From Bryobacteraceae bacterium (lineage in GTDB: Bacteria; Acidobacteriota; Terriglobia; Bryobacterales; Bryobacteraceae): DNA of 64,000 nucleotides. Below, piece by piece: positions 8,934-61,737 of this stretch (position 1 is the stretch's first letter; each line of letters begins with the position of its first letter). Both the position numbers and the translations under genes were made by a program. Where the stretch lies: positions 1-64,000 of the forward strand of contig JASIAM010000127.1 of the NCBI GenBank assembly GCA_030041985.1, in the 5' to 3' direction. The notes under the pieces are model-generated. The model saw nothing but the letters and a program-made list of their open reading frames with translations, made no database searches and was not told the DNA's origin.

Positions 8934-8955
8934 CTGGAGAAATAGCAGTTTCAGT

Positions 8956-9384: not shown

Positions 9385-10854
<1,470 letters not shown>

Positions 10855-30691: not shown

Positions 30692-30716
30692 CAGATCTTT
30701 AATACTCTACTATGTT
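30688..30716 (+). promoter_or_regulatory. Sigma70-like promoter candidate P2 for the TonB receptor
   Basis: TTGACA (30688-30693), spacing 17 bp, TATGTT (30711-30716). Transcription would start near 30723, about 24 bases before ATG 30747. The -35 is a perfect match. Confidence 0.5.
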
Positions 30717-30746
30717 GATTTCAAATGGCAATGGAAGGCTTCGCAC

Positions 30747-45669: not shown

Positions 45670-45671
45670 GG

Positions 45672-46427
45672 TTACTCCAAATTCGCCCGTCGCCTTCGGA
45701 AGATGAGCAGCCGATGATCGGCGAGCGACCGGGCCACGGGCAGTCCGCCAATCCAGCGGTCGATTTCCCCGAACACGCGGAGCACTGCCGGCGGCAGCCC
45801 GCGAACGTAAGATGGCGGCACGCAGATTCCGATTCCCGCCGTGCTGATGAGTTCGAATTCAGGGGCAAAGGTCCGCCGCAAATTTCGCACGGTGGGATAG
45901 AACACGCGCACGCCGAAGCCGGAGTGGAAATAGGAACCGGTCGAGCGGCGGAACGCCTTTCGCGCGCAGCCGCGGAGCAGATACGAGGCCGTTTCCCAAA
46001 GGCAGAATCGTCCCATGATGCAAAGCACCGCGTAGCCTCCAGGGCGCACCAGAGGAGCCATGCGGCCCACATCGGCCACGCAGTTCAGTGCGCCGAAGTT
46101 GGAGAGCACCACGTCGAACTGTTCTTCGATCCGCAAAATATTTTCGATCGCCAACACGCGTGCATCGACGCCACGCGCCTGCGCCCGTTTCACCATTTCG
46201 CTGGAGGCGTCAATGGCGGTCACGCGCATGCCCAACCGCATCAGCCACGCCGCATCTTCGCCGGTTCCGCAGCCGAGATCCAAAACTCGATCACCGGCAC
46301 GGAAAATGGGGAGAATGCGACACCACACTGCGTCGCGCTGCAATCGGCCGACGGGCGCATCGGTCCAAAGCGCGTCATACTCTGGCGCGAGTTGATCGAA
46401 GGCGGCCTGGACAGCGCCAGCTTGCAT
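45672..46427 (-). CDS. SAM-dependent methyltransferase
   Basis: 251 aa. The start at 46427 is one base beyond the radical SAM gene's stop; GGAGG lies 6-10 bases before it, inside that gene's last codons. Motif I is 'VLDLGCGTGEDAAWLMRLG', followed by 'VTAIDASSEMVKRAQARG', 'NFGALNCVADVGRMAPLVRPGG'. 'PEYDALW' at the N-terminus is typical of the UbiE-like group. The C-terminal part is longer than average. Function in the operon is unknown; it probably N- or O-methylates a product. Confidence 0.87.
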   Translation of the reverse strand: MQAGAVQAAFDQLAPEYDALWTDAPVGRLQRDAVWCRILPIFRAGDRVLDLGCGTGEDAAWLMRLGMRVTAIDASSEMVKRAQARGVDARVLAIENILRIEEQFDVVLSNFGALNCVADVGRMAPLVRPGGYAVLCIMGRFCLWETASYLLRGCARKAFRRSTGSYFHSGFGVRVFYPTVRNLRRTFAPEFELISTAGIGICVPPSYVRGLPPAVLRVFGEIDRWIGGLPVARSLADHRLLIFRRRRANLE

Positions 46428-46428
46428 T

Positions 46429-47757
46429 TCAGGCCTCCACCTCGGCTGCGGTTGCGGCCAGCCCCTCGCGAGCGGCCATTGCCTGTTCCGCTGTTTGGCT
46501 TCGTAGGAGGTCATCGGCGTAATGGTAATAGCGGCGGGAATGGCGGCCCCGTATGCGAATTTCCCGATCCGTCGTATGGTTCCAGGGAGTCAGGGTGACC
46601 AGCTTGCTGTTGAGCTTCTCGAAATACGGTGTGCCTTTGATAGGGTAGGACACCGTGGTAAAAAACACATCGGGGCGGCATTGTTTCACGTGTTCCGCCG
46701 TTGCTTCAATATCGCTCAGTTCCTCGCCCTCATAGCCCCACATGAAAAACATGCCGGTCTGGATTCCATTTTGCCGGCACAAATCCACGGCACGCCGCAC
46801 TTGTTCGACGGTGACGCCGCGTTGCATAGCATCTAGAATCCGTTGTGAGCCGCTTTCGGAGCCGATCCAAACGCGCAGGCAGCCCATTTCCGCCAAGGTC
46901 GCGGCGACCGGCGCATTCATGCGGTCCGCGCGCGTAATGCACTCGAACGGCAATCGGATGCCGCGCTTCCGCAACTCGCCGGCATAGGATTGAATCCAGC
47001 CAGGGTGAATGGTGAACACATCATCCGCCATCCACAGCATGTCGGGATGGTATTGGCTGGCGAGCCACTCCACTTCATCGGCCACCGAAGCCGGGGAGCG
47101 GCGGCGATGCGTCATGCCATAGACGGAATGGCTGCACCAGTTGCAACGGTACGGGCAACCACGCGCAGTAATCACGGAAATCGAGCCTTGGCCATGGTGC
47201 TCGCGCCAGGTTTTCAGGTACCTAGGGATATCGATATGCGCGCGATCGGGCCACGGCTGCGCATCCAGATTGTCAATCAGGCAGGCTGGGCCCGTACGAA
47301 CCACCTGGCCATTAGCTGCTCGAAACGCGAGGCCGGCAATCGATTCCGACAGCGCAAAATCGAAGTTCGAAGCGAGCAATTGCTCGAGCGCGGCCTCCCC
47401 TTCGCCGCATACGATCACATCCCCGTATGCCAGGTACTCATCGACGTAGTTAGCGGGCTCGGGTCCGCCGAAAATTACGCGCCAACCGGCCGCGCGCGCC
47501 CAGGTTGCGATCTCGATGGCGTTGCTTCTGGTCATCAGGTTGGCGTAGATGCCGATGACCGCGGGCGGTCCCTGCTCGATGATGCCGAACAGTTCCCGGC
47601 GCGAGCCAAAAGTGGAATCGTAGATCTCGACCGCAAAACCCTTGCCGCGGAGGTGCGAGGAAAGGTACAGGATGCCCAGGGGAGGGTAGGGCTTCATGAT
47701 CTCCTGCTCCTTCGCATCCTCGGTGAGGAAGTAACCATGCGTGAGCAGGAGCTTCAT
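46429..47757 (-). CDS. Radical SAM protein with N-terminal cobalamin-binding-like region
   Basis: 442 aa. ATG 47757 overlaps the preceding stop by one base (TGATG). N-terminal B12-like region: 'YPPLGILYLSSHLRGKGFAVEI', 'IGIYANLMTRSNA', 'VIFGGPEPANY', 'VIVCGEGEAAL'. The core has C201-x3-C205-x2-C208 ('CPYRCNWC') and 'MLWMADDVFTI' and 'VWIGSESGSQRILDAM'. It is clearly similar to the neighbouring protein at 47757-49130 and likely arose by duplication. The GGEGE-like acidic strand replaces a plain DxH motif. Confidence 0.88.
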   Translation of the reverse strand: MKLLLTHGYFLTEDAKEQEIMKPYPPLGILYLSSHLRGKGFAVEIYDSTFGSRRELFGIIEQGPPAVIGIYANLMTRSNAIEIATWARAAGWRVIFGGPEPANYVDEYLAYGDVIVCGEGEAALEQLLASNFDFALSESIAGLAFRAANGQVVRTGPACLIDNLDAQPWPDRAHIDIPRYLKTWREHHGQGSISVITARGCPYRCNWCSHSVYGMTHRRRSPASVADEVEWLASQYHPDMLWMADDVFTIHPGWIQSYAGELRKRGIRLPFECITRADRMNAPVAATLAEMGCLRVWIGSESGSQRILDAMQRGVTVEQVRRAVDLCRQNGIQTGMFFMWGYEGEELSDIEATAEHVKQCRPDVFFTTVSYPIKGTPYFEKLNSKLVTLTPWNHTTDREIRIRGRHSRRYYHYADDLLRSQTAEQAMAAREGLAATAAEVEA

Positions 47758-49130
47758 CAGGCCACCGCCAGGTTACGATCCGCGTCCGCGCGCAGCGCCT
47801 GCACTTGTGCCCAAGCCTCGCCAATGCCCGCGCCTCCACGAACTTCTATATGCAACGCCTGGGCCAACGCCCGGTAGAACTCGCTGCTGTAGGCGCCGCG
47901 AAACATCATCGCGATATCAGCGCTATCGGACCAATTCTGTTTCGGGCCTAGCTGCGATTCGACAATGCGGTATAGTTTGGTTCCCGGGAGCGGATAGGAA
48001 ACGGACACGCCGATGTCGTCGGGCGCGGCCTTCCGCACCATGGAAATGGTCTCCTCGATATCGCTCCAGTCCTCTCCTGGATATCCGAACTGCAGAAAGA
48101 AACAGGCGCGGATGCCATGCCGGGCCAGGTTCTCACGCGCCTGATAGATCTGTTCGGTGCGAATGCCCTTCTCCATCGCGTTCAGCACCCGCTGTGAGCC
48201 GGATTCGGCGCCCATCCACACTTCCTCGCATCCCGCGCGACGTAAAGCGGCAACCGTGCTGCGCGTCATGAGGTCGCACCGCGACTGCATCTTGAAAGGA
48301 ATTTGCGCGCCCAACTTGACCACCGCGCTGGCAAATTCCTCGGTCCATTGCGCGGATAAGGCGAAAATGTCGTCGGCGAACCAAATGCGATCCGGACGGT
48401 ACGTCTTTTTCAGATGCAGCATCTGTTCCGCGGTAGAGTGCGCCGTTTGCGCATGGTAGTGCTTGCCCCAGATTGGCCTCGCGCACCAGTTGCATTGATA
48501 AGGGCAGCCGCGGCTGGAGACGAGGTTGAACGTAAAATGCCCGTGCCGCTGGAGCCAGTGGCGCCGGTACGGCTCTATGTCGATAGCGTCCCAGGCCGGC
48601 CATGGTAACGCATCCAAATCCGCTCGGAGTTGGCGCGGGCAGTTCCTGCGGACGCTGTTTGTATCGCGCCAGGCAAGCCCGTCGATCGCCTCCCATGGCT
48701 TGTCCATCGCAAGTTCGAGAACGGTGGTTTCCGCCTCGCCCACGACCACCGACGAAAAACCGGCTTCGATGTATTGGTCAATATGATCGGACGCGTCCGA
48801 GCCATGCGCGGCCGCATCTATACCATGGCGGCGTGCTTCCGCCGCCATCCAATAAGCCAGTTCCCGATTGTGCGTCAGGCACATTTTCGAGAGGAAGTTG
48901 AAATCGTCTTCGCAAACCACCACCAGCCGCAGGCGATGCCGGCGCAGGGCTTCGCGAAAACCCTCCTGTGGCGAATCGAAGGTGGGATCGAACAGCGCTG
49001 TATCGATTCCAGCCTGGCGCAATACAGCTACCACGATCAGTGTTTCGAGCGGCGGATAGGGCTGCATCTTCTCGATCTGCTTGCGATCGGAGTAAAGGTG
49101 ATTGCTGTGCGTCACCAGGACATCGGCCAT
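47757..49130 (-). CDS. Radical SAM protein with N-terminal cobalamin-binding-like region
   Basis: 457 aa from ATG 49130, 5 bp after the preceding stop; the frame is open to 49205 but that part belongs to the other gene. N-terminal region: 'YPPLETLIVVAVLRQAGIDTAL', 'VVVCEDDFNFLSKMCLTHN', 'VVVGEAETTVLELA'. Core: C209-x3-C213-x2-C216 ('CPYQCNWC'), 'IWFADDIFAL', 'VWMGAESGSQRVLNAMEKGI'. The last feature (E-S-G-S-Q-R) is shared with the 46429-47757 protein and gives the SAM ribose contact. The product is unknown. Confidence 0.88.
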   Translation of the reverse strand: MADVLVTHSNHLYSDRKQIEKMQPYPPLETLIVVAVLRQAGIDTALFDPTFDSPQEGFREALRRHRLRLVVVCEDDFNFLSKMCLTHNRELAYWMAAEARRHGIDAAAHGSDASDHIDQYIEAGFSSVVVGEAETTVLELAMDKPWEAIDGLAWRDTNSVRRNCPRQLRADLDALPWPAWDAIDIEPYRRHWLQRHGHFTFNLVSSRGCPYQCNWCARPIWGKHYHAQTAHSTAEQMLHLKKTYRPDRIWFADDIFALSAQWTEEFASAVVKLGAQIPFKMQSRCDLMTRSTVAALRRAGCEEVWMGAESGSQRVLNAMEKGIRTEQIYQARENLARHGIRACFFLQFGYPGEDWSDIEETISMVRKAAPDDIGVSVSYPLPGTKLYRIVESQLGPKQNWSDSADIAMMFRGAYSSEFYRALAQALHIEVRGGAGIGEAWAQVQALRADADRNLAVA

Positions 49131-49135
49131 CGTTT

Positions 49136-50638
49136 CTAACTCGCCTTCGAAAACTGGTTGCTGAGCCTTTGGCCTGTGAGCAGCGACCGCCGCACTGCAA
49201 GCCACTTGCTCGCCATCGATAATCCCAACTCAAACGGCATGCCGAAAAAGGCATTGCGCAGACGCCAATCGAGAGGCTGCCGAACCAGCGTGAGCGCTTT
49301 TCGAAGTACCGCCGAGCGCGCTCTGTGCTGGGCCTTCTTCAAGCGGCCGTCGAGCAGGAAATAGGAAATGCTACGCCGCAGCCGGACAAACGCCGGACCT
49401 TCCATCCATGGCAATCGATTCAATCCAAGGTCCACTCCGGACCATTCCTCGAGGTTCGTGGGCTCGGCCATGCCGGCGGCGCGCAGTTCATCCCAAATCG
49501 GAATTCCCGGGTAGGCCGTAAACAGGTTCGGAGAAAACGTCACGTTGTCATACCTGGACGCAATCTCTCCCATGACACGCAGAGTTTCGCGGCGGTGCCG
49601 CTCCTGTTCCCCGGGGTAGCCGAAAATAAGGTTTAGGGTGACCCGGATCCCGGCACGCTGGCATTTGCGGGCGGCTTCGGCAATATCCGCGATATGCTGG
49701 TGCCGCTTGTTCATGGCGCGCAGCACCTCCGGCGAGGCGGACTCCGTACCGAAACCGATATGGCTTACGCCGCTTTCCCCCAGCATGTTCACGTCTTCAT
49801 CACTCATGCGGCACAGCAGATCGGTCGAAGCTTGAAAAGTCCAGCGGAAACGGACGCCCGACTCGCGAATGCCGTGCGCGATAGCTATGGCGCGTGACAC
49901 GTCGACTAGAAAATTCGAATCCACCAGTGCTACTTCCTCGAGCCGGTAGCGTTCGACCAGTGCGGTCATTTCGCTCACCACGCGGTCTGCCGGCAACGCA
50001 TTGAACCGGCGCTTGTAGAAAACCATGTCCGTGCAGTAATTGCACGCGTAGGGGCACCCTATGCTGGTGGCGTACGGTAACTTCCGAGAGCGGCCGGCAC
50101 GCGCATAAGAACCGAAAACGGCCAGTTCATATGCCGGCAGAGGCAGATCGCCGATCGGCGTAGCCGGACGGTCGGGGTTACGGACGATTTTGCCGGACCG
50201 CTTGAACCAACATCCCGCCACCAGGTCGAGAGGCCTGCCGTTCTCCAGGTTGCCGATAATCTCCAGTAGCGTCCGCTCCCCTTGGTGCCGCACTACGATA
50301 TCGACGTAATCCTCCCGCAGCGTTTGCTCGGAGGTCAGGCTAGGGTGCCAGCCGCCGAAAATGATCGGCACTTCCGGGCGAAGAGAGCGAACGTGGCGCG
50401 CGGCCTGGATGGCGTCGAGAATCATCGGCCCCGTCAGCAGCGATACGCCAAAGCAACGGACTCGCGGTAACTCTTCCGCGATCTGGTTCAGATAATCCGG
50501 TTCGACCGCACCATCCACAACCGTTACGCCATAACCCGCTTCGCGCAGCGAACCAGCCAGGCTAAGCAGCCCCAGCGGCGGCCCGAAGGTGGGACCAGCG
50601 TAAGGCGGAAGAAAGAGCAGAACGCCAGGCTTCAGCAT
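49136..50638 (-). CDS. Radical SAM protein with N-terminal cobalamin-binding-like region
   Basis: 500 aa from ATG 50638, overlapping the upstream gene by 7 bp. N-terminal region: 'FGPPLGLLSLAGSLREAGYGV', 'FGVSLLTGPMI', 'PIIFGGWHPSLTSEQ', 'VVRHQGERTLLEI'. Core: C195-x3-C199-x2-C202 ('CPYACNYC'), 'VALVDSNFLVD', 'IGFGTESASPEVLRAM'. A ~100-residue Arg/Lys-rich C-terminal region follows ('LDWRLRNAFFGMPFEL'), absent from the 46-49 kb pair. It closely resembles the next protein (50632-52134) and is its probable paralog. Confidence 0.88.
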   Translation of the reverse strand: MLKPGVLLFLPPYAGPTFGPPLGLLSLAGSLREAGYGVTVVDGAVEPDYLNQIAEELPRVRCFGVSLLTGPMILDAIQAARHVRSLRPEVPIIFGGWHPSLTSEQTLREDYVDIVVRHQGERTLLEIIGNLENGRPLDLVAGCWFKRSGKIVRNPDRPATPIGDLPLPAYELAVFGSYARAGRSRKLPYATSIGCPYACNYCTDMVFYKRRFNALPADRVVSEMTALVERYRLEEVALVDSNFLVDVSRAIAIAHGIRESGVRFRWTFQASTDLLCRMSDEDVNMLGESGVSHIGFGTESASPEVLRAMNKRHQHIADIAEAARKCQRAGIRVTLNLIFGYPGEQERHRRETLRVMGEIASRYDNVTFSPNLFTAYPGIPIWDELRAAGMAEPTNLEEWSGVDLGLNRLPWMEGPAFVRLRRSISYFLLDGRLKKAQHRARSAVLRKALTLVRQPLDWRLRNAFFGMPFELGLSMASKWLAVRRSLLTGQRLSNQFSKAS

Positions 50639-52134
50639 GTCACGGCCTCGGCTTCCAGCCGATGCGCGTCGACTTTGGATTTAGGGGGCTCCACAAAGCG
50701 GTTTGCGAAGTTCTTCAGCCAGATCTCCAGCGGCAGGCCGTAATAGTTGTGATCGAGCCGCCAGCGCGCGGGAACGCTGATCATCTCGTGGATCGCGCGC
50801 ACCCAGGCGGGTGTTCGCATCCGGCCAATCGGAATCCGGTGGAACGCCAAACGCAAATACTCGCGCATGGTTTGCACTTCCTGGTGCTTCCTGCCTTTGA
50901 GCCACGGCAGCGTCGTATAGCGCGGGAAAAAGTCCGCCCAGTCTTCCAAACTTCGCGGTACCTGAATCCCCAACTCGAACGCCTGCTGCATAACAGGCGA
51001 GCCGGGATACGGCGTGAAGATATTGGTCCAGAACTCCGCCCCTGGATAGCGGCGGCAGATGTCCATGATCAAAGCGATCGATTCGCGGCGTTCCTTTTCG
51101 CCCTCGCCCGGAAACCCGAAAATCATGTTGAACGAGGGGCGAATCCCGGCTTGCGTAAGCTTATCGGCGGCCGTATAAATGGTGTCGATCTTCTGGAACG
51201 TCTTGTTCATCAGCCGCAACACCGCGGGCGAGCCACTATCGGCGCCCTGAGAAACCTGGGAAAGCCCCGCGCGCCGTAGCAGCTTCAGTTCATCCACCGA
51301 GAAGCGGGAAACCAGGTTGGTAGAGGCTTGAATGCTCCAATCGAAACGCACGCCCCTGCGAACGATTCCCTCGGCGATTTCCAGCGCGCGATCATGATCG
51401 ACCAGGAAGTTGTCGTCTACCACCCACAACAGCGAAAGCCCGTACCGCGTTACCAAATCGGAGACTTCCTCCACCACCTGACCGGCTTCGAGCGCGTTCC
51501 ACTTTCTGCCGTAGACGCCATTGTTGGTGCAATAAGCGCAGTCGTAAGGACAGGCCAGACTGGAAGTGTACATCGCCCAACGGCGCCCGCAGACCCGCTC
51601 ATACGCGTCGAAATCGGCCAGGTGGTAGGCTTTTGGGGGGAGTTCGCGAATTGGTTTCAACGGGCGCGGTGGATTGAAGCGTAGACGGCCATCCACCTTA
51701 TATGCAGCGCCCGCGACTCCTTCGAACGATTCGCCCGCTTCAATCTTTTGCACAATCTCGAGTAGTGCGTCCTCGCCTTGACCTTTCACGATCACGTCCA
51801 CAAAAGCGGCCGCAAGCGTCTGGTCGGGAAGCAGGGAAGGGTGCCAGCCGCCCAGGATCACAGGTTTCTCGGGATAAATCTCCTTCGCCACGCGTCCGAT
51901 TTCGACTGTTTCCCGGATCATCGGGCCTGTGACCAGCGAGATTGCCAGGCACAAGGCATCGCGAAGCTCTTCGATCACGCGCTTACGAAAATTCGGCGTG
52001 ATCGTCGAATCGATAATCGTGGCCTGATAACCGGCGCGCAACAACGGAGTGGATACCGCGAGAATACCGAGCGGAGCGGTGGCCTCCTGGCTCGAAAAGG
52101 CCGGAAAAAAGAACACGATCTTTTTCGAATGCAT
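50632..52134 (-). CDS. Radical SAM protein with N-terminal cobalamin-binding-like region (first gene of the operon)
   Basis: 500 aa from ATG 52134 (TTG at 52137 precedes it; GAGAG lies just upstream). N-terminal region: 'TAPLGILAVSTPLLRAGYQAT', 'LAISLVTGPMIRETVEI', 'PVILGGWHPSLLPDQTL', 'VIVKGQGEDALLEI'. Core: C195-x3-C199-x2-C202 ('CPYDCAYC'), 'LLWVVDDNFLVD', 'VSQGADSGSPAVLRLMNK'. The C-terminal 'WRLDHNYYGLPLEIWLKN' corresponds to 'WRLRNAFFGMPFEL' in the next protein. It probably shares a promoter region with the divergent sugar transferase gene. Confidence 0.88.
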   Translation of the reverse strand: MHSKKIVFFFPAFSSQEATAPLGILAVSTPLLRAGYQATIIDSTITPNFRKRVIEELRDALCLAISLVTGPMIRETVEIGRVAKEIYPEKPVILGGWHPSLLPDQTLAAAFVDVIVKGQGEDALLEIVQKIEAGESFEGVAGAAYKVDGRLRFNPPRPLKPIRELPPKAYHLADFDAYERVCGRRWAMYTSSLACPYDCAYCTNNGVYGRKWNALEAGQVVEEVSDLVTRYGLSLLWVVDDNFLVDHDRALEIAEGIVRRGVRFDWSIQASTNLVSRFSVDELKLLRRAGLSQVSQGADSGSPAVLRLMNKTFQKIDTIYTAADKLTQAGIRPSFNMIFGFPGEGEKERRESIALIMDICRRYPGAEFWTNIFTPYPGSPVMQQAFELGIQVPRSLEDWADFFPRYTTLPWLKGRKHQEVQTMREYLRLAFHRIPIGRMRTPAWVRAIHEMISVPARWRLDHNYYGLPLEIWLKNFANRFVEPPKSKVDAHRLEAEAVTC

Positions 52135-52157
52135 CAACTGCTCTCAAAGTTAGGACA

Positions 52158-52886
52158 ATGCAAAATCGGCTGCGGAACAGGCCGTCACGCGTTCTGTCTG
52201 CGTCCAGGCTCTGTCTTACTTATTTGGCCTCTACATACACACCCGAACTGGTCGCGTGGCGCTGCCGCCCGCAAAGCCGGCCGTTGACATGGATCCATTC
52301 GCTGGAACCCGTGCTGGCCGCGGCTTTACTGATCGCCCTCGCACCGGTTCTGCTTATCATCGCAGCGGTGATAGCGGTGTTGGCGCGCCGGTCACCTCTG
52401 GTGTGGCACGCGCGTGTGGGCTGGTACGGCGCCTCGCTTCCGATCCTGAAGTTTCGAACCATGTGGCCACGAGAGCGCCCCCGTTCGTCCCTGTTCACTG
52501 TCGAGCAAGTGAAAGACTATGTTCCCCAGTGGAAAACCGAACCGGACCCGCGCGTGACCAGCCGCTTCGCCCGGTGGTGCCGCCGGCATTCGCTGGATGA
52601 ACTCCCGCAGCTTTATCACGTGGTGCGCGGCGAGATGTCGTTCATCGGGCCGCGCCCCATCACGCGCGCGGAACTGGATGAGTATTACGGGGCCAGCGCG
52701 GACGAGGTGTTGTCGCTGCGGCCCGGCCTGGCGGGCCTGTGGCAGGTGTGCGGCCGTAATCACCTGACGTATGCGAAGCGGCGCAGGCTCGATCTGTTTC
52801 TCGTACGCCGCATGTCGGCCGGACTCTATTTCCGCATTCTCTGGCGGGCTGCCTGGAAGGTGATCAGTGGGAGCGGCGCTTACTAG
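52158..52886 (+). CDS. Bacterial sugar transferase (undecaprenyl-phosphate sugar phosphotransferase-like)
   Basis: 242 aa with ATG 52158 as start; an in-frame TTG 52284 gives a start that aligns better with this family, and the divergent neighbour begins only 23 bp away, so the shorter form is quite possible. One membrane helix ('LAAALLIALAPVLLIIAAVIAVL') is followed by the conserved cytoplasmic domain: 'LPILKFRTMW', 'RWCRRHSLDELPQLYHVVRGEMSFIGPRP' (here given in parts: 'SLDELPQLYHVV', 'GEMSFIGPRP') and 'LRPGLAGLWQVCGRN'. It loads the first sugar phosphate on the lipid carrier and starts EPS repeat-unit synthesis. Confidence 0.88.
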   Translation: MQNRLRNRPSRVLSASRLCLTYLASTYTPELVAWRCRPQSRPLTWIHSLEPVLAAALLIALAPVLLIIAAVIAVLARRSPLVWHARVGWYGASLPILKFRTMWPRERPRSSLFTVEQVKDYVPQWKTEPDPRVTSRFARWCRRHSLDELPQLYHVVRGEMSFIGPRPITRAELDEYYGASADEVLSLRPGLAGLWQVCGRNHLTYAKRRRLDLFLVRRMSAGLYFRILWRAAWKVISGSGAY

Positions 52887-54159
52887 ATCGAGCACGGCGC
52901 CTCTCGCTGCTGCGGCCCTGTCGCAAAACTCGATCGGGATCAATTTACCCTTCTGCCTGACCTTCCTCGCTGCCGCCTCCATTCTTTTTTCCATCGCCGT
53001 CTCGCAGATTGCCATGGCATTGGCGCTGGTAGCCCTGCTCCTCTCGCGCGAGCGGCTGTGTCTGCCGCCGTTGAAAGCTCCGTTCGTAGCGATCTTCGTG
53101 ACAATCCTGGTGCCACTGATGCTTTCAGGCGATCCTGTCCATGGGCTACCACAGGTCCGCAAGCTATACGTGTTTACAATTCTGGTACTCATCGTCAACA
53201 CATTCCGCAGTTTCGAGCAGATTCGCGCGTTGCTTCTGACTTGGGCGGCCATCGCCAGCGCTTCTGCCCTAAGCGGCGTTGCCCAATACCTTGCCCGGCG
53301 CCAAGCAGGGTTTCTCGAGCATGCCGACAAGCTCGAACACGCCAGCTACTACGACTATTTCCTCGATAATCGTATCCATGGTTTGGCCGGACACTGGATG
53401 ACCTTCGGCGGCCTCCAGATGATCGTGCTGGTCTGGCTTGCGTCGGCGGCTCTGTTTGCCCCAACCCGCCGCACCCGGGTTCTAGCGGCGCTATTCCTTC
53501 CCCTCATTGGCGTCTCGCTGGTACTGGGGCTTACTCGCGGCGTGTTTTTGTTCGGTGCGCCAGCCGGCCTATTCTATCTGCTGTGGCGCAAGCAGCGGAT
53601 GGCCGTGCTGTTACTGCCGGTAGCCGCCGCGTTGCTCTGTCTTGCCGCGCCTTTTCAGGTGCGGGACCGCTTTCTTTCGGTGATCCGGCCCCACGCGGAC
53701 TTCGATTCCAATGCCCGCCGCATGGTCATGCTGCGCACCGGCTGGCAAATGGTGAATGCGCACCCCTGGTTCGGACTTGGGCCGGAGCAGATCGCCGTTC
53801 AGTTTGACCGCTACGTGCCGCGCGATATCCCGCGCCCATTGCCCAAAGGCTGGTACGGCCACCTGCACAACATCTATTTGCAATATGCGGCCGAGCGGGG
53901 GATTCCGGGCCTGCTAGCAGTTCTTTGGTTTGTAATCAAGCCGCTGGCCGATTTTTCTCGTGCGCTGAGGTCACATCGTGCGCTTCCCCAAATCACGTTT
54001 GTGCTGCATGCAGCCACCGCGGTAACGCTCGCTGTACTGGCGGAGGGCCTCGTGGAGCATAACCTCGGGGATAGCGAGGTCTTGACCATATATCTCACGT
54101 CGATCGGTTTGGGCTATGCGGCGCTCCGCTGTTGCAGGGAAGCCATGCCATGCGTGTAG
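52867..54159 (+). CDS. O-antigen ligase/polymerase-like membrane protein
   Basis: 430 aa from GTG 52867, overlapping the sugar transferase by 20 bp. About ten membrane helices and a large periplasmic loop near residues 270-340. The Wzy_C-like region contains 'MLRTGWQMVNAHPWFGLGPEQI' and 'HLHNIYLQYAAERGIPGLLAV', the conserved His and Arg-rich features of O-antigen ligases/polymerases. It is likely to polymerise or ligate the exopolysaccharide. The next gene's ATG lies 10 bp inside its end. A second protein of the type is at 59186-60583; no flippase gene is visible. Confidence 0.82.
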   Translation: MGAALTRSSTAPLAAAALSQNSIGINLPFCLTFLAAASILFSIAVSQIAMALALVALLLSRERLCLPPLKAPFVAIFVTILVPLMLSGDPVHGLPQVRKLYVFTILVLIVNTFRSFEQIRALLLTWAAIASASALSGVAQYLARRQAGFLEHADKLEHASYYDYFLDNRIHGLAGHWMTFGGLQMIVLVWLASAALFAPTRRTRVLAALFLPLIGVSLVLGLTRGVFLFGAPAGLFYLLWRKQRMAVLLLPVAAALLCLAAPFQVRDRFLSVIRPHADFDSNARRMVMLRTGWQMVNAHPWFGLGPEQIAVQFDRYVPRDIPRPLPKGWYGHLHNIYLQYAAERGIPGLLAVLWFVIKPLADFSRALRSHRALPQITFVLHAATAVTLAVLAEGLVEHNLGDSEVLTIYLTSIGLGYAALRCCREAMPCV

Positions 54160-55256
54160 CAATTGTTCACTATTGGCTGCTGGGCGCGCGCGGCGGCGAA
54201 CGCGTCGTTGAGGCGATTTGCCGTCTGTTCCCACAGGCGGACATCTTCACCCTGTTCTATGAACCGGACCTCATTCGTTCCCGAAAAGTCTATGCGTCAT
54301 TTCTAAACCCGCTGCGAAAGTTCCACCGGGGCCTGCTGCCGCTGATGCCCTTAGCGCTCGAGTCCTTCGACCTGCGCGACTACGATCTGGTGATCAGCAG
54401 CGAATCCGGACCTGCCAAAGGGGTGCTCACACCATCTGCTGCGCGGCACATTTGTTATTGCCACACGCCCATGCGTTATCTGTGGGAACTGTACCCGGCT
54501 TACCGGAACGAGTTCACCAGTGGCCCTCTTAGCCGCGCGTTGCTGCCGGTATTTGCGCATTATCTTCGCACATGGGACGTGGCGACGTCGTATCGCGTGG
54601 ATTCTTTTCTGGCCAATAGCCGCAACGTGCGCCGCCGCATTTGGAAAACCTATCGCCGCCGCAGTACTGTCTGTTACCCGCCCGTCGCGGTCGAAAGCTT
54701 TTACTCGAAAACTTCTATGGATTACTTCCTGATTGTTTCCGAGTTAGTTGCCTACAAACGGCTCGACTATGCGGTGCGCCTTTGTGCCGAGAAGGGCTAC
54801 GCACTGAAGGTTGTCGGAGACGGCCCGGCGTACCGCTTATTGAAACGGCTTGCCGGGCATACCGTGGAGTTTTGCGGCCGTGTATCCGATTCTGACCTGC
54901 GGTCGCTCTACGCCAGCGCAGCCGCGTTTCTCATGCCGGGCGAAGAGGATTTCGGAATCGGCATGGTGGAAGCATTAGCTAGCGGGAAACCGGTGATCGC
55001 TTTAGGCCGGGGCGGAGCGCGCGAGATTGTAACCGAAGGCTGCGGCATTCTCTTTCCCCAACCGACGCAGGAGTGCCTCGGCGATGCAATGCGCCGCTTT
55101 GAGCACTTTCGTGACCAGTTCGATCCGTCACACCTCCAGCAACGCGCGGCGGAATTCTCCGAAGATCGCTTTCGAACTCTTTTTTTGCAAGCTGTTTTCA
55201 GACAGAAAGCACTTTCTAACGTGTGTCTGGAAGCGGCGCCGGTCCCCTCGATATGA
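54150..55256 (+). CDS. Glycosyltransferase family 4 (WbaZ/mannosyltransferase-like)
   Basis: 368 aa from ATG 54150, overlapping the ligase stop by 10 bp. 'VAIVHYWLLGARGGERVVEAI' is the N-terminal motif of a group of GT4 mannosyltransferase-like enzymes, with 'HICYCHTPMRYLWELYPAYR' in the middle. The C-lobe has 'LIVSELVAYKRLDYAV' and 'MPGEEDFGIGMVEALASGKPVIA' (E-x7-E nucleotide-sugar-binding motif). It adds a sugar, probably mannose or a similar hexose, to the lipid-linked chain. The sugar is inferred. Confidence 0.87.
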   Translation: MRVAIVHYWLLGARGGERVVEAICRLFPQADIFTLFYEPDLIRSRKVYASFLNPLRKFHRGLLPLMPLALESFDLRDYDLVISSESGPAKGVLTPSAARHICYCHTPMRYLWELYPAYRNEFTSGPLSRALLPVFAHYLRTWDVATSYRVDSFLANSRNVRRRIWKTYRRRSTVCYPPVAVESFYSKTSMDYFLIVSELVAYKRLDYAVRLCAEKGYALKVVGDGPAYRLLKRLAGHTVEFCGRVSDSDLRSLYASAAAFLMPGEEDFGIGMVEALASGKPVIALGRGGAREIVTEGCGILFPQPTQECLGDAMRRFEHFRDQFDPSHLQQRAAEFSEDRFRTLFLQAVFRQKALSNVCLEAAPVPSI

Positions 55257-55322
55257 TCTCGGGCACAAAAATTTTACATCGGTGCAACAACTTCCCTTAG
55301 ATGCGGAGATTACCATCCGCTC

Positions 55323-55949
55323 ATGGGAACAGGATCTCTACAGTTCTTTAGCGGAGTGAGCACTAACGTAACTGAGCTTACCGATGAGGAATTGATTGAT
55401 ACTTTGCGAGGTGTTGCCGACCGCGCTTGGGCCGATCATCTTTTCACGGAGGTGTTTCACCGCTATGAACGGCGCGTGCGGGTGTGGTGTGAGCGCTTTA
55501 CCGGTGACCGGGATCTTGCCCTGGATTTAGCTCAGGAGGTTTTCTTGAAAGCATACCGCCACCTCGGCAGTTTTCGCTGTGATTCAAGATTTTCCACCTG
55601 GCTTTTTGCCATCGCGCAGAATCATTGCCGTAATTCCAATACCCGCCGCCGCTTGGTAGTTCTGGAAATTGATGAAGCCATGGCCGAGCAACTGCCGGAT
55701 GTGCGTGCGTTGGACCCATACGAAGCCCTCGAGCGAGATCAGTTGTGCCGCCTGATGTGGGATCTCATATCCGCCACCCTGGACCCGATTGAGGTCCGGG
55801 TGATGACGCTGCATTATGGACAAGAGGTACCGCTGGCAACCATTACCCGCCGGCTGTCGCTTTCCAATCGTAGTGGCGCGAAAGCTTATATCGTAAGCGC
55901 GCGGCGTAAGTTGAGCGGCGCTCTGCACCAACGGGCAGAGAAAGTGTGA
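55323..55949 (+). CDS. RNA polymerase sigma factor, ECF type
   Basis: 208 aa. Region 2: 'HRYERRVRVWCERFTGDRD', then 'LAQEVFLKAYRHLGSF' and 'FSTWLFAIAQNHCRN' (the core-binding and -10-recognition helices). Region 4: 'TLDPIEVRVMTLHYGQEVPLATITRRL' (helix-turn-helix) and 'GAKAYIVSARRKLSG'. A start at ATG 55323 is used; a GTG at 55356 is possible. No anti-sigma factor is adjacent. It is followed by a coupled HPr-kinase-like gene, and both lie within the EPS locus, so it may control the locus in response to a signal. Confidence 0.85.
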   Translation: MGTGSLQFFSGVSTNVTELTDEELIDTLRGVADRAWADHLFTEVFHRYERRVRVWCERFTGDRDLALDLAQEVFLKAYRHLGSFRCDSRFSTWLFAIAQNHCRNSNTRRRLVVLEIDEAMAEQLPDVRALDPYEALERDQLCRLMWDLISATLDPIEVRVMTLHYGQEVPLATITRRLSLSNRSGAKAYIVSARRKLSGALHQRAEKV

Positions 55950-56974
55950 TGATCCCCGCCATAGACATCGTCCTTTCCCCTCTGGACGATGCCGACCCGC
56001 TCCGCTGTCGCGCTCCGCTGCCACTCGTCGCAATGTGCCATCCGATCGGGTTTTCGCTAGAGATCGCCACCAATGCCCCGGAAGTGCTGGCCGTGGCCGG
56101 CGAGCTTTGGGCCGGTTACCCCCGGTTATCAAACTCCAAGCCAGTACGGTTCCACGTAGCCGTCGAAGATGCGCAGATCTCCCGACGCGCGAGTGACACC
56201 GCTCAGGGGCAACCAGTTGTCCGTGGGCGGGAGCACCTGGTATCCGTGATCGAGTCGCCTCGCAATTTCGCGGTGGCCGATCTATCCCGTGGCTTCGCTT
56301 ATGCGTCCTTGACGCACGATTTGGCCGCTGATCAGAACCGCTTCCGCTATTATTTCCTTGAGCCGTTGGTCCATTTGATGATCGACTCACTCCACACAAC
56401 ACCGCTGCACGCCTCGTGCGTGGCGCTTCCACATGCCGGCAATGCCAATAAGGCACGCGCCGCCGTGCTGTGTGGACCATCCGGCGCCGGCAAGACTTCA
56501 CTCGCCTACGCCTGCGCGCGGCGTGGCTGGACGTACCTCTCGGGCGATGCTACTCACCTGCTGCGGCGCGGCAACGGTCACACCGTCGCGGGCCGTCCTC
56601 ATCACATCCGGTTCCGCGTCTCGGCGCGCCGTCTGTTTCCTGAGTTGAACGCTTTTCCTCCGATGCTTCGCCCTAACGGCAAGTGCGGCTTCGAAGTGGA
56701 TACAGGCCGGCTGGGCATTCCCACGGCATACCGGGCCCAAGCCCGCGCCGTGGTTTTTCTTCATCGGCATAGCGATTCCTCTCCCGCCGAAATTCACTCA
56801 TTCCCGCGGGAGAAGGCGCAGCATATTCTGCAACAGGTGGTCTGCTATGGCGAGGATGACACCCGCAGGCAGCAGATCGCCGCGCTGGATCGTTTTCTCG
56901 ATTTGCCGCTGTTTGCCTTGCACTATCGCGATTTGGACGAAGCCGAGCGCGCGCTCAGGCAGTTGCTGATATGA
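55946..56974 (+). CDS. HPr kinase-like ATP-binding protein
   Basis: 342 aa from GTG 55946 (ATG 55949 follows directly); the start overlaps the sigma-factor stop. A Walker A 'CGPSGAGKTSLAYACARRG' sits near residue 175, and 'SGDATHLL' further on resembles the HPr kinase/phosphorylase Walker B and signature. A ~150-residue N-terminal region precedes it. Homologues of this type (HprK-related kinases) occur in exopolysaccharide and RiPP loci and are thought to phosphorylate serine in a partner. No obvious HPr-like partner is in the window. The stop overlaps the next gene's start (ATGA). Confidence 0.75.
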   Translation: MMIPAIDIVLSPLDDADPLRCRAPLPLVAMCHPIGFSLEIATNAPEVLAVAGELWAGYPRLSNSKPVRFHVAVEDAQISRRASDTAQGQPVVRGREHLVSVIESPRNFAVADLSRGFAYASLTHDLAADQNRFRYYFLEPLVHLMIDSLHTTPLHASCVALPHAGNANKARAAVLCGPSGAGKTSLAYACARRGWTYLSGDATHLLRRGNGHTVAGRPHHIRFRVSARRLFPELNAFPPMLRPNGKCGFEVDTGRLGIPTAYRAQARAVVFLHRHSDSSPAEIHSFPREKAQHILQQVVCYGEDDTRRQQIAALDRFLDLPLFALHYRDLDEAERALRQLLI

Positions 56975-58191
56975 ATCGCGGCTTTCGGCTTGCGCCCATT
57001 CTGGATGCCCTCCGTTTCCACGATGCCCACCCGGAAAAGCTGACGGCCATCGCGCCGGAGCACTGGAAGGCGCTGCTGTCAAGGACGGATCACGCCCGCC
57101 TCACGTTGCCGCTGGGAATTCGATGCCGCGAGTGGTTGCCGATACTGGTTCGCGACCGCATCGATCGGGACCTCTCCCGGAACGCCGAGCGGCATCAAAG
57201 GCTACGAACCGAGTACGGCCGGATAGCAGCCCTTTTTGTGCAACGCGGCATTGAGTTTCTCGTATTGAAGGGTGCGGCACACTGGCCGTATTTTTGCGAT
57301 CACCCGCACCACCGCCCCCAATATGATTTCGACCTGTGGTGCGCTCCGGCCAGTCTCGAAGCGGCACAGGCTGCCGCGGCGGAACTGGGGTTCGAGGCCG
57401 TCGAAGGGCGCCGTGACGGTCCTACGGACCATCTACCTACGATGATCCGGCGGACGGGCTGGCGGTGGCGGTCCGACTACTTCGATCCCGAAATGCCCCC
57501 CTCACTCGAAATTCACTTTCGACTTTGGAATCCGGTGACCGAGTGCATCGAGGTAAAGGGCCTCGAGGATTTTTTGACCCGCCGCTCAGTGCAAGAGGTG
57601 GCCGGTGTGCATATTCCAGCGCTCAGCCTGCCGGATACCCTCTCCTACGCTACCCTGCACACGCTGCGTCATTTGCTGCGGGGTGACTTGTGCCCCTACC
57701 ACGTCTACGAAATAGCGCATTTCCTGGAACGGAGCCATCAGGACACAGAGTTTTGGAATAGCTGGCGCGCCTTCACTTCTCACTCGCTTCGTTCTGTGGC
57801 CACACTCGCCTTCCGCCTGGCACATGCATGGTTCCGTTGCAGACTGCCTCCGGCCGCAGAAGCCGCGCTGGCTCCGCCCTTGGAAAACTGGCTGGATCGA
57901 TTCGCGCTTTCGCCTCTGCGCGACTCGCCCAATAAAGACGAACTTTGGCTGCACCTTGCGCTCGTTCCGGATTGGCGTGCCCGCCGCGGTATTTTATTAC
58001 GGCGTCTGCTACCGCGGCCGGCGAACGTATCACTTGCCCCCCATGTGCCCTCAAAAACGCTGCTTTGGAAAGTACGGCAGCGTTTATACCAAGCGCGATT
58101 TACCGCCATCCGCGCCGTGTATCACCTTCGCGCGCTGTTTGGCTCTGCGCTGCGTGCGGCTTCTTCCAGAGCCTCGCAGATCTCACGCTGA
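56971..58191 (+). CDS. Nucleotidyltransferase-family protein (NTP_transf_5-like)
   Basis: 406 aa. Motif 'FLVLKGAAHWPYF' and 'PQYDFDLWCAP' (D-x-D metal pair) fit the NTP_transf_5 type, found in EPS and RiPP loci. The rest is helical. It could transfer a nucleotide to a protein or sugar. Its start overlaps the HPr-kinase-like gene by ATGA, and its last 70 bp overlap the end of the convergent glycosyltransferase (58122-58191). The role is unknown; sigma factor, kinase-like and nucleotidyltransferase genes form one coupled trio. Confidence 0.75.
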   Translation: MNRGFRLAPILDALRFHDAHPEKLTAIAPEHWKALLSRTDHARLTLPLGIRCREWLPILVRDRIDRDLSRNAERHQRLRTEYGRIAALFVQRGIEFLVLKGAAHWPYFCDHPHHRPQYDFDLWCAPASLEAAQAAAAELGFEAVEGRRDGPTDHLPTMIRRTGWRWRSDYFDPEMPPSLEIHFRLWNPVTECIEVKGLEDFLTRRSVQEVAGVHIPALSLPDTLSYATLHTLRHLLRGDLCPYHVYEIAHFLERSHQDTEFWNSWRAFTSHSLRSVATLAFRLAHAWFRCRLPPAAEAALAPPLENWLDRFALSPLRDSPNKDELWLHLALVPDWRARRGILLRRLLPRPANVSLAPHVPSKTLLWKVRQRLYQARFTAIRAVYHLRALFGSALRAASSRASQISR

Positions 58192-59189
58192 TACCGTTCC
58201 AGCCGAAAGTGCTCGTGCCATGATTGCCGGGCATTGCGCGCCAGCTCGTTCCTTCGCCCCGGATCACGCAGCAACGCCGTGATCGAGTCGGCCAACGAGC
58301 CCGGCGTGGGAGCATCCGTCAAAATCCCCGTCTTACCGTGTTCGATTAACTCGGGAATGCCTCCCGAACGGTACGCTATGATCGGCTTGCCAGCCGAAAG
58401 CGCTTCGAGAACCACCCGTGGTGCGGCATCATGCTGCATAGAAGGCACGGCAACAATGTCCAGTTCGCCTAACGCCTGGGCTGGGTCGTCCACCCAGCCT
58501 CGGAACTCCACCGGCGCCCCCTTCGCCTCCTCGCGCACCCTGCGCTCATAGTCTGAAGAAGCAAACCGCGAGGCGCCGAAAATCAGGAAACACGCATTCC
58601 GGCACCGCCGCGCAGCCTCGACAAAGTGAAGCTGGCCCTTTTCGGGCGCAATCCTGCCGATCACGCCGACGCGCGGTCTCACATTCAGCGAAGCCCCATT
58701 CAGCGGCGCGCCAGGGGAGCCGAGGTCGGCAACGCCCGAGTAGATCACCTGGATACTGGCCGGAGCAGCTAATTGTTGCAAACTTCTAGCGACGTACTGC
58801 GAAGCCGCAATGACCCGGGCTTTGGTGCGTCCGAACGCCCACCTCGCTAAACCGCGCGCGTACCATTTCCCGAGAAGGCTATGTGAATAGAAGATGATTG
58901 GGCGCTCGATGGCAACCACGGCCGGCAGCACCCTCGGGCCATTCACCAGAGCCAACTCGATGGGGCTTTCGCGAACCATGGTTGCAATGGCTGCCGCCGC
59001 CCGCTGCATGTCGAACGCGTAGCGGAATATGTCCGCTGCTGTTTTATGGCCATTCCGATATCGCGTCACCGGCCGGGGAACGAATGTCTCTACGCGCCAG
59101 CCGCGCCGCTGCATTTCCGGCAACAGACTCCGCATGCAGATTTGCGCCCCGCCGGCTTCACTGAATTGATCGACCACCAGAAGGTTCAT
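58122..59189 (-). CDS. Glycosyltransferase family 4
   Basis: 355 aa from ATG 59189 (overlaps the ligase stop as ATGA); the frame is open to 59528 but that part is inside the ligase gene. 'LLVVDQFSEAGGAQICMRSLLP' is the acceptor-binding loop. The C-lobe has 'VGVIGRIAPEKGQLHFVEAA', 'EFRGWVDDP' and 'PRVVLEALSAGKPIIAYRSGGIPE' (E-x7-E). It adds a sugar to the growing glycan. Its tail overlaps the convergent nucleotidyltransferase gene by 70 bp. Confidence 0.88.
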   Translation of the reverse strand: MNLLVVDQFSEAGGAQICMRSLLPEMQRRGWRVETFVPRPVTRYRNGHKTAADIFRYAFDMQRAAAAIATMVRESPIELALVNGPRVLPAVVAIERPIIFYSHSLLGKWYARGLARWAFGRTKARVIAASQYVARSLQQLAAPASIQVIYSGVADLGSPGAPLNGASLNVRPRVGVIGRIAPEKGQLHFVEAARRCRNACFLIFGASRFASSDYERRVREEAKGAPVEFRGWVDDPAQALGELDIVAVPSMQHDAAPRVVLEALSAGKPIIAYRSGGIPELIEHGKTGILTDAPTPGSLADSITALLRDPGRRNELARNARQSWHEHFRLERYQREICEALEEAARSAEPNSARR

Positions 59190-60583
59190 GCGCCCTCCCC
59201 GCGTTCGCGCGCGGCAGCCCCTAGCACCCAGAAGTAAACCGGCAAAACGCGCCAGTAGGTGATCAGGTCGCCCGAGAACATTTGCACCATCTGCCCGGTC
59301 CAGAAGCAGAAGATCCATGTTCCGAAAAATGCCGCATGGCCGCGTGTAGAACGCGCCGCACGCCACGCAGTTTTCAGAATCGCGCCATTCAGGAATAGAA
59401 ACGCAGCCAGCCCGGCCACGCCGGTTTCCACCAGCAGGCTGAGGTAGGTGTTGTCCGCGATGATCGGCTGCCCGGCAAATTGGGTATAGGGCAAGGTTTT
59501 GTAGCCAATGCCGAACAAGCCATGCCATGGCTCGTGCGTGAGGAACTCAATCAGAGCGTTCCAACTGGTAAGGCGGCCGGACAGCACTCCGTTGGGCAGC
59601 GTTCCGATGTACTCGAATGATTCGAGCCTCGCCAGATAACTATCGGAGATCCTGGGGAACGCCGCATGCAAGGTGAATGCTGCCGCCGTAATGGAAACCG
59701 CCAAAATGGCTAACGCTTTTCGAATGCCCGCCCGGCGCACTACTGCAAAAGCCGCCATCCCCGCCACCACATTGAGGATGGATGCGCGTGAATAGCTGAA
59801 CGCCAGTGTGATTGAGAAAAGAACGCCTCCGAGAACAAGCATCGGACGAGCGCATATGGTTTGGCCGCGCGGCTGGAACATCGCCACCATCACCATCAGC
59901 AAAAAAAACGCGCATAGATTGCCCAGTGTGCTGGCATCGTAGAATACGCCCTGGGCGCGGCGCAGGACCGCATCCGTCAACCACACGAATTGCGGCCCGT
60001 AACCGGAGGGCGCCGGAAATTGGAAGTGAAAATCCACGCACGCGAATAGCGCGGTCGCAATGCCGAGCCAGAACAAAAAGCGCGCCTTGCTCAACAGGTC
60101 GCCTCCACCGGCTGCGGGACCGCTCCATGTATAAGCCAGCACGTACACCGCTTGCGCGAATAGCATGACCCGCAACAGCGTCCCGGCTGCGATTTCCATC
60201 CCGGAGTACAACGCGGCGACCGCCGTGCTCTCGGCAAGTACGGCCAGGAAAATCAGCAACGCCAGAGGAAGATGGCCGGACACGCGTCGCCACGCGGTCC
60301 ATCCGAGAGCACCTGCGAGCAGCCCCATTCCGGCGAATACTGGGGCGATGTGTAAACTCGTGCCCGGAATCGGCGGCGCAAGTAGCAGAGCGGCGAAGAA
60401 CAAAAGCAGCCACCGGCTGGGGGATTGGAGCGCCCAAACCGCGCTTGCCAGCAAAAGCGCCGCTGAAACCAGGACCACGCCTGCTGAGGTTGTCCAGCTT
60501 ACAGCCGCAGCCGCCGCCCACATGCCAATTACCCATGGCGCGAGCATGCGCCAGTTTGGCAGCCGCAGTACGCCGGCGCTCAT
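59186..60583 (-). CDS. O-antigen ligase/polymerase-like membrane protein
   Basis: 465 aa with about 11 membrane helices. The Wzy_C-like region contains 'WNALIEFLTHEPWHGLFGIGY' and 'NTYLSLLVETGVAGLAAFLFL'. ATG 60583 overlaps the Wzz gene's stop as ATGA. It forms one transcript with the Wzz-like and glycosyltransferase genes. Two ligase/polymerase-like proteins in one locus suggest that one acts as polymerase and the other as ligase; this is inference. Confidence 0.85.
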   Translation of the reverse strand: MSAGVLRLPNWRMLAPWVIGMWAAAAAVSWTTSAGVVLVSAALLLASAVWALQSPSRWLLLFFAALLLAPPIPGTSLHIAPVFAGMGLLAGALGWTAWRRVSGHLPLALLIFLAVLAESTAVAALYSGMEIAAGTLLRVMLFAQAVYVLAYTWSGPAAGGGDLLSKARFLFWLGIATALFACVDFHFQFPAPSGYGPQFVWLTDAVLRRAQGVFYDASTLGNLCAFFLLMVMVAMFQPRGQTICARPMLVLGGVLFSITLAFSYSRASILNVVAGMAAFAVVRRAGIRKALAILAVSITAAAFTLHAAFPRISDSYLARLESFEYIGTLPNGVLSGRLTSWNALIEFLTHEPWHGLFGIGYKTLPYTQFAGQPIIADNTYLSLLVETGVAGLAAFLFLNGAILKTAWRAARSTRGHAAFFGTWIFCFWTGQMVQMFSGDLITYWRVLPVYFWVLGAAARERGEGA

Positions 60584-61737
60584 CGTTCCCAGGAACTCGA
60601 ATAAGCCGCAGCCTGGCCTTCAAGTCGGCTCTGTTCCAAGCCGAATCGAAGAGCCGATACGCCCACCGCCCCCACCAGCGATAGCACCAGCGCGGCCAGC
60701 ACATTCAGCGGCAGGTTCGGTGAGCTGGGCCGGTTCGGCACGATGCCCGGATCGATTACCTCCAAACGCTCCCCGCGAAACACGGCCGACGCGCGAATGT
60801 CGTTCAGCTTGTTTTTGGCCGCTTCGTATTCCGTGCGTGCCGCGGCCAGTTCGGCGTCCAGACCTTCGCGTTGGCTCTTACGTTGTTCCAGAAGCATGCT
60901 CTCGCGCTCGATCGACCGGGTCGCCTCCGCCTCGCTGCGCTTTAATTCGTCCACGCGTGCTTTAATGGCCTTCACCTCAATGCGCGCGGAGTCTCCCTCC
61001 GGGTCCGGGGCGTCCTGGCGCGCAGTGTATTCGGCAAGCTGAGCCTCCGCATCCGCCAGGTCGCGGCGAATCCGCAGTTGTACTTCCCCAGCGCTGGCCA
61101 CATCATCCTCCAGCGCCTGCACCGGCTGGCTGGCGGTAAACGCTTCGCGAGCCGCGCGGGCGCGCTGGAAACGCGTTTCCGCAGCGGCCAGAATGTCTCG
61201 TGATTCCCGTGTTACATCGTCTTCTGAGGAGCTATCTACCGATCTGCTCAGGGCCACGGTGCGATCGGCGAGATAGTGAGCCAGAGCTTGGGCCAGGCGT
61301 GGATCCTCGAGCGTGACGCCGATTTCCAGAACCGTCGTATTGGCCGGCTTGGAGACATGCAATATGGCACGCTTCAAAGATTCCACGCTTTTCCCCGCGT
61401 TTGCTTCCGGAATTTGCAGATGCCGCAGAGCCTCGAGGAACAAGCTGTCGTTGGATGCGATTCGCTCGAAAGTTTTTAAAGAATCCAAATAGACGGTGCT
61501 TAGGGCCGTGGAAGCGCGCGGATCGTTACCGGCAGGTGGCTCGATGAGCACGGTGGCAGTCGTGGTGTAGCGCTTCGGCAACAACAAACTGATGCCACCG
61601 GCGCCCGCCACAGCTATACCACAGGTCAAGGCAATCCAGCGCGCCTGCTTGCGAAGGTAGGTTTCGAATCCAATGAGATCGAAGTCGCGATCCGCAGCCA
61701 CACTACTTGGACCAGTCCAAGTGGCCTTCGGGAACAC
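60580..61737 (-). CDS. Chain-length determinant (Wzz/GumC-like) protein
   Basis: 385 aa from GTG 61737; GTG 61701 is an alternative that would leave the palindrome at 61705-61722 upstream of the gene. Two membrane helices (about residues 33-53 and 345-363) flank a large periplasmic region with coiled-coil at about 190-300. The conserved 'DPGIVPNRPSSPNLPLN' before helix 2 is the Pro-rich motif of polysaccharide co-polymerases. No C-terminal tyrosine-kinase domain, so it is the short PCP form. It controls EPS chain length together with the ligase/polymerase gene. Confidence 0.87.
   Translation of the reverse strand: MFPKATWTGPSSVAADRDFDLIGFETYLRKQARWIALTCGIAVAGAGGISLLLPKRYTTTATVLIEPPAGNDPRASTALSTVYLDSLKTFERIASNDSLFLEALRHLQIPEANAGKSVESLKRAILHVSKPANTTVLEIGVTLEDPRLAQALAHYLADRTVALSRSVDSSSEDDVTRESRDILAAAETRFQRARAAREAFTASQPVQALEDDVASAGEVQLRIRRDLADAEAQLAEYTARQDAPDPEGDSARIEVKAIKARVDELKRSEAEATRSIERESMLLEQRKSQREGLDAELAAARTEYEAAKNKLNDIRASAVFRGERLEVIDPGIVPNRPSSPNLPLNVLAALVLSLVGAVGVSALRFGLEQSRLEGQAAAYSSSWER
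61705..61722. promoter_or_regulatory. Perfect 8-2-8 palindrome at the Wzz gene start
   Basis: ACTTGGAC-CA-GTCCAAGT. If translation of the Wzz gene begins at GTG 61701, the palindrome ends 3 bp before the start codon and could be an operator for a dimeric regulator. If it begins at 61737, the palindrome lies within codons 6-11. Confidence 0.4.

Follow-up and report, generated by a model that had tools for sequence, protein, structure and literature searches.

Three overlapping genes, encoding an ECF sigma factor, an HprK-like kinase and a nucleotidyltransferase, lie within an EPS locus in a stretch of Bryobacteraceae DNA of 64,000 nucleotides (the window). An earlier note on this DNA had proposed that the three form a signal-to-transcription module controlling glycan production. 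The locus raises the question of whether the genes belong together at all and, if only some of them do, what those could be doing beside EPS genes. The explanation that we favor, and regard as moderately probable, is that the kinase and nucleotidyltransferase are a tailoring pair of an EPS/radical-SAM locus, to which an ECF sigma factor set by a two-component system has been joined as an accessory.

Gene content of the window locus

The genes around the trio and the candidate regulatory sequence in front of it are as follows.

52158..52886, + strand: polyprenyl glycosylphosphotransferase (Bac_transf), opening the + strand EPS operon
52867..54159, + strand: Wzy_C-family O-antigen ligase/polymerase
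54132..55256, + strand: GT4 glycosyltransferase, the commonest kinase neighbor in relatives
55262..55291, + strand: weak CpxR-like tandem box, GGCACAAA-aat-TTTACATC-ggt-GCAACAAC, 61 bp 5′ of the sigma ATG
55323..55949, + strand: ECF sigma factor, region 2 strong and region 4 weak, no adjacent anti-sigma gene
55946..56974, + strand: HprK/PEPCK-fold kinase (predicted), with H155, P-loop K183 and D201 kept and G200 at the first Asp position of the H-K-D-D motif
56971..58191, + strand: PF14907 (NTP_transf_5) nucleotidyltransferase, with D119/D121 invariant and E180 mostly conserved, without the C-terminal MFS domain of many relatives
58122..61737, − strand: convergent EPS operon (GT4, Wzy_C and Wzz-like proteins), kept beside the kinase–nucleotidyltransferase pair

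The coordinates of the three overlapping genes, both overlaps and the family assignments were borne out by the ORFs, the junctions, hexamer scores, and profile and fold comparisons. The sigma/kinase junction is TGATG, with the sigma stop and the kinase ATG meeting at 55949; a GTG at 55946 is a possible alternative start for the kinase, and the sigma factor has an alternative start of its own, an in-frame GTG at 55356. The kinase stop and the nucleotidyltransferase start share the junction ATGA, and hexamer coding scores were positive for the sigma factor (43), the kinase (96) and the nucleotidyltransferase (76). The surrounding EPS genes comprise a sugar transferase, a Wzy_C protein and a GT4 5′ of the trio on the same strand, and a convergent GT4, a second Wzy_C protein and a Wzz-like protein 3′ of it. 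As listed, the convergent GT4 ORF (58122-59528, − strand) overlaps the neighboring Wzy_C gene by >300 bases, and its true start is probably further in.

Outside this locus, at 40616-52137 (− strand), the window carries a gene block whose products are five B12-binding radical SAM proteins, one SPASM radical SAM protein, three methyltransferases and an amidohydrolase. Genes of this block adjoin the kinase–nucleotidyltransferase pair in many Acidobacteriota, also at loci where adjacent EPS genes were not observed (L061, L062, L065, L066, L068, L240, L249, L251, L255 and L256, these and other L numbers denoting loci). Two distant relatives of the PF25183-type barrel that intervenes between kinase and nucleotidyltransferase elsewhere are encoded at 25229-28369 (− strand) and 30618-33635 (+ strand). 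Exosortase (PF09721) gave four matches in the window's genome (G000; contigs C17, C74, C114 and C258) and none in the window.

Predicted folds and motifs of the kinase and nucleotidyltransferase

The kinase scored 28.8 bits against TIGR04352 (HprK-related kinase A), below the cut-off of 200, and profile searches gave no match to Hpr_kinase_C (PF07475); its best solved relative by sequence profile was HprK/P 1ko7 (E value, 8e−7). The relative at L109 passes PF07475 (40.6 bits; cut-off, 33.3). No PF07475 match, and hence no canonical HprK, was identified anywhere in the window's genome, and canonical HPr signaling was rejected on this ground. A kinase model built from 18 sequences (mean pLDDT, 90) matched PEPCK (PEP carboxykinase; Z of 15.9 over 275 residues) and HprK/P 1ko7 (Z of 14.0, 2.3 Å, 129 residues). 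Judged by this model, the kinase is clearly HprK/PEPCK by fold, though weakly HprK-like by profile, and because the PEPCK-like fold spans the whole chain, a small-molecule substrate is possible.

Across 61 kinase homologues, H155 and the P-loop K183 are invariant, D201 is 93% conserved, and 92% have Asp at the first position of the DD pair. This first Asp is replaced by Gly in the window (G200) and in L069, L070, L072 and L119, leaving the window kinase with three of the four H-K-D-D residues; the DD pair is intact in the nearest relative, L071. With Gly in place of a motif Asp, activity cannot be taken for granted for kinases of the window's clade, although the window kinase, which keeps the other three residues, is likely to be active. 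Tandem duplicated kinase genes precede the barrel and nucleotidyltransferase genes at L089 (951-3027) and L097 (8995-11113), and in the first copy the DD pair has become DE.

The nucleotidyltransferase scored 96.6 bits against PF14907 (NTP_transf_5; cut-off, 31.2). Comparison of 14 sequences showed D119 and D121 to be invariant and position 180 to be mostly E or D. Its model (pLDDT, 81) matched pol-beta-type nucleotidyltransferases at Z of about 10 to 11, among them LnuA and ANT(2″)-Ia, and the LicD-type enzyme FKRP at Z of 8.3. Many of the relatives' nucleotidyltransferases are ∼800 residues long, and the three such proteins scanned have a C-terminal MFS domain; the NT–MFS fusion was thus seen by scan in three proteins and by length in many others. 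The literature searched held no direct account of PF14907, or of HprK in the EPS loci of Acidobacteriota. PsmN, discussed below, is presumably also a PF14907 protein.

Conservation of the kinase–nucleotidyltransferase pair

Relatives were sought in Bryobacteraceae and other Acidobacteriota genomes. The kinase was present in 64 of 200 family genomes (E value, ≤1e−5) and in other families of the phylum. For the 42 family kinase loci with at least 5 kb of downstream sequence, the nucleotidyltransferase gene was found on the same strand and ≤5 kb 3′ of the kinase gene in 38, either within 500 bp (19 loci) or further on behind a barrel gene (19 loci). Gaps between the two genes in adjacent relatives ranged from −4 to 119 bp and were mostly <52 bp. 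Where an OM barrel (∼1,065 amino acids; PF25183 plus CarboxypepD_reg) lies directly 3′ of the kinase, as in 19 loci, it is a third core member, and the gene order kinase–OM barrel–NT–MFS recurs in many relatives; barrel and MFS fusion are both missing at this place in the window. A MurJ-type flippase is encoded directly 5′ of the kinase in 14/55 loci, and a GT4 gene, mostly divergent, lies ≤2.5 kb from it in 41/55. The pair was also present in most Acidobacteriaceae loci read, where the sigma gene is absent and the neighbors are B12-radical-SAM genes, Wza/Wzi-like genes, or a histidine kinase/regulator pair. The pair recurs across the Acidobacteriota in EPS and B12-radical-SAM loci, and the pairing of the two enzymes in an EPS setting, to which the earlier note had drawn attention, proved on these neighborhood counts to be conserved.

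Since the partners of the two enzymes look like envelope or export proteins (OM barrel and MFS fusion), this pattern suggests a role in tailoring rather than signaling. In the model that we favor, the HprK/PEPCK-fold kinase would phosphorylate a substrate made or handled by the EPS/B12-radical-SAM locus, and the PF14907 nucleotidyltransferase would in turn use the phosphorylated product for a nucleotidyl or glycosyl-phosphate transfer of the kind suggested for PsmN; we infer both the substrate and this order of reactions. The modified product could thereby become exportable or attachable at the envelope, which would explain why relatives have an OM barrel gene between the two and an MFS domain fused to the nucleotidyltransferase.

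A salvage route following the salvage-and-decorate logic of LicABCD is the best placed of the alternatives, and an unlikely one. The OM barrel and MFS domain would take up a small alcohol or sugar for phosphorylation by the kinase, and the nucleotidyltransferase would activate it or transfer it to the polysaccharide. The recurrent kinase–OM barrel–NT–MFS gene order, the extent of the PEPCK-like fold with its possible small-molecule substrate, and FKRP among the fold matches are all consistent with such a route; however, the window has neither barrel nor MFS fusion at this place, and PF25183-type barrels are numerous in the Acidobacteriota and may have many roles.

A little less probable again is modification of a ribosomal peptide (RiPP) in the manner of PsmK/PsmN, with the radical-SAM proteins acting as further tailoring enzymes. 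Such a pair is known in lasso-peptide clusters (PMC9266682), and SPASM and B12-radical-SAM genes lie nearby. However, no match to the PqqD domain (PF05402) was obtained anywhere in the 98% complete genome, and no small ORF was conserved in at least three loci within 8 kb of the kinase, a search that very short or divergent precursors could escape. Given the lack of PqqD and of a conserved small ORF, a lasso peptide or other RiPP is less likely here. In another reading, the kinase of the window's clade is degenerating or has lost catalysis and is retained solely as a structural partner. Its Gly substitution (window, L069, L070, L072 and L119) and the window's lack of MFS domain and barrel fit this reading, but it is very improbable, as the His, P-loop Lys and second Asp are still conserved in these sequences, together with the motifs around them, and L071 keeps its DD pair.

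Distribution of the sigma factor

The sigma factor scored 53 bits for sigma70_r2 and 66.7 bits for TIGR02937 (cut-off, 42.9), while region 4 alone reached 15.2 bits, below the Pfam cut-off of 24.1. Its gene lies 5′ of the kinase gene in 5/55 loci (the window, L070, L072, L119 and L109); in L070 a MurJ gene lies between the two, and in L109 the sigma gene is 5′ of a GT4 gene. In genome G010, the sigma gene is probably also upstream of the kinase, across a contig break (L162/L071). Counting G010, there are six kinases with a sigma factor, and five of them fall in one six-member clade of the kinase tree (SH-aLRT, 100). The sixth member of that clade, L069, has no sigma gene, and L109 is a separate case outside it. 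In G001, a genome from the same genus as the window, a kinase belonging to a different clade sits in a kinase–barrel–NT locus that has no sigma gene. The sigma family itself was present in 52/200 genomes, mostly away from the kinase. These neighborhood counts and trees rejected the sigma factor as part of a conserved trio, and the trio as such was not found to be conserved in other Acidobacteriota or EPS loci. Judged from gene order and phylogeny, the sigma factor appears to be a later addition to the pair in one lineage, with one independent case.

The reading offered earlier, in which the two enzymes would respond to a signal and regulate the co-translated sigma factor, for instance by phosphorylating it in the way that PknT phosphorylates EcfP, gains from the tight overlap in the window, from the stop-start overlap seen again in L072 (ATGA) and from the same 9-bp domain spacing kept in L119. 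Activation of an ECF factor by a Ser/Thr kinase also has a precedent in PknT and EcfP (PMC8999054). Against this, about 90% of kinase loci have no sigma gene, most sigma relatives are encoded away from a kinase, L069 is a kinase of the same clade without a sigma factor, and L070 has MurJ in between. Furthermore, the acidic D..QE residues of region 2.2 are kept by most of the sigma family, and there is therefore no sign of phosphorylation-dependent activity. Sigma control by the two enzymes is accordingly highly unlikely, and the idea of a signal-to-transcription module went unsupported, the sigma family lying mostly elsewhere and a response-regulator-like box standing 5′ of sigma genes of this family. 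The absence of an adjacent anti-sigma gene was confirmed, although it is less unusual than had been thought: ECF factors without an anti-sigma factor are a recognized class, and several are set transcriptionally by two-component systems (PMC8999054). A search for the ECF-type promoter GGAAC-N14-18-[CG]GT[CT] 5′ of Wzz, BacT and WzyA gave two matches, in near-identical loci only, and the suggested sigma-dependent promoter before the EPS genes was not found by this pattern. Dyads common to five loci probably come from the conserved rSAM1 coding sequence 5′ of BacT.

A CpxR-like box and a two-component operon

A direct repeat, TTTACAAC-N3-TTTACAAC, was identified 5′ of sigma genes in one large subclade. 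Allowing ≤3 mismatches, 64 sites were present in 1.32 Mb of these loci, whereas other spacers gave 1 to 11, a Markov control gave 1 and permuted half-sites averaged 3. The box (≥13/16) occurred 5′ of 14/25 sigma genes and was enriched 5′ of the kinase (7/58; expected, 0.12), the OmpR-type regulator (5/10) and Wza-like genes (3/5), as well as 5′ of families F23/F32 and the sugar transferase (4/19). Because the surveyed loci were picked for holding a kinase or sigma gene and the consensus was taken from sigma upstream regions, the sigma counts are partly circular; those for the kinase, regulator and Wza-like genes are not. The window's own box matches 11 to 12 of 16 positions, a score reached by 1 to 4 of 100 shuffles and barely above chance alone, and its assignment is supported by matching position in relatives, with the distance of 61 bp to the sigma ATG being equal in L072, L160 and L162. 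At up to 3 mismatches, the box was not enriched in the window's genome (19 matches versus 20 for controls) and showed no general excess genome-wide in 12 genomes pooled, which limits the claim to these loci. It was at background level in Acidobacteriaceae loci.

In some relatives, a two-component operon adjoins the sigma gene. The window's genome carries the orthologous operon on contig C354 (histidine kinase, 50 to 51% identity; regulator, 67% identity), with a 13/16 box about 55 bp 5′ of its first gene. This region (G000:C354:4170-9620; L202), orthologous to F16/F17/F19/F18/F14 of relatives, leads with a stand-alone winged-helix-like protein and has its OmpR-type regulator at 8433-9161, and the gene that follows the operon (9650-10330) ends in a PEP-CTERM-like sorting signal, as read by eye. 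In the favored model, the ECF sigma factor upstream of the pair in one lineage would be an accessory, its level probably governed by a response regulator of OmpR/CpxR-like type via TTTACAAC-N3-TTTACAAC, like SigE under CseBC; we infer both this box-binding regulator and the target promoters of the sigma factor. A far bolder proposal, which we consider doubtful, is a phylum-wide Acidobacteriota envelope pathway in which kinase, OM barrel and NT–MFS fusion would together add phosphate and nucleotidyl groups to a small building block and deliver it to the polysaccharide or to the product of the neighboring B12-radical-SAM cluster, the pathway being part of a CpxR-like two-component regulon in the Bryobacteraceae-type family.

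Comparison with known systems

As far as the literature found shows, pairs of an HprK-like kinase and a nucleotidyltransferase have been studied in lasso-peptide clusters only. A conserved pair in EPS loci of a major soil phylum, accompanied by a barrel and a transporter, offers testable partners for orphan enzymes, and the box points to a candidate EPS-gene regulon in one family of the Acidobacteriota.

The closest studied counterpart of the window pair is PsmK/PsmN of pseudomycoidin. PsmK phosphorylates, and PsmN leads to a hexose on the phosphate, with its direct activity unsettled (PMC9266682). PsmK/PsmN and PadeK (paeninodin) share with the window an HprK-like kinase beside an annotated nucleotidyltransferase and have the H-K-D-D motif (PMC9266682), of which the window kinase keeps three residues, whereas the pair described here lies in EPS/B12-radical-SAM loci and has an OM barrel and an MFS fusion in relatives. 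Compared with the HprK/P and PEPCK family, the window kinase has the P-loop, catalytic His and second Asp but is without one motif Asp and falls below the Hpr_kinase_C cut-off. The CpxR box is GTAAA-N5-6-GTAAA, and the reverse complement of TTTACAAC-N3-TTTACAAC contains GTAAA-N6-GTAAA, which is CpxR-type spacing (PMC9600279); the half-site here is longer, and the likeness is one of spacing and sequence. The arrangement described here resembles SigE/CseBC of Streptomyces coelicolor, an ECF factor under transcriptional control of a two-component system, in that the ECF factor is without an anti-sigma factor and, in some relatives, has a two-component operon beside its gene. The putative response-regulator box 5′ of the sigma gene, strong in relatives and weak in the window, would be a further likeness; SigE/CseBC belongs to another phylum.
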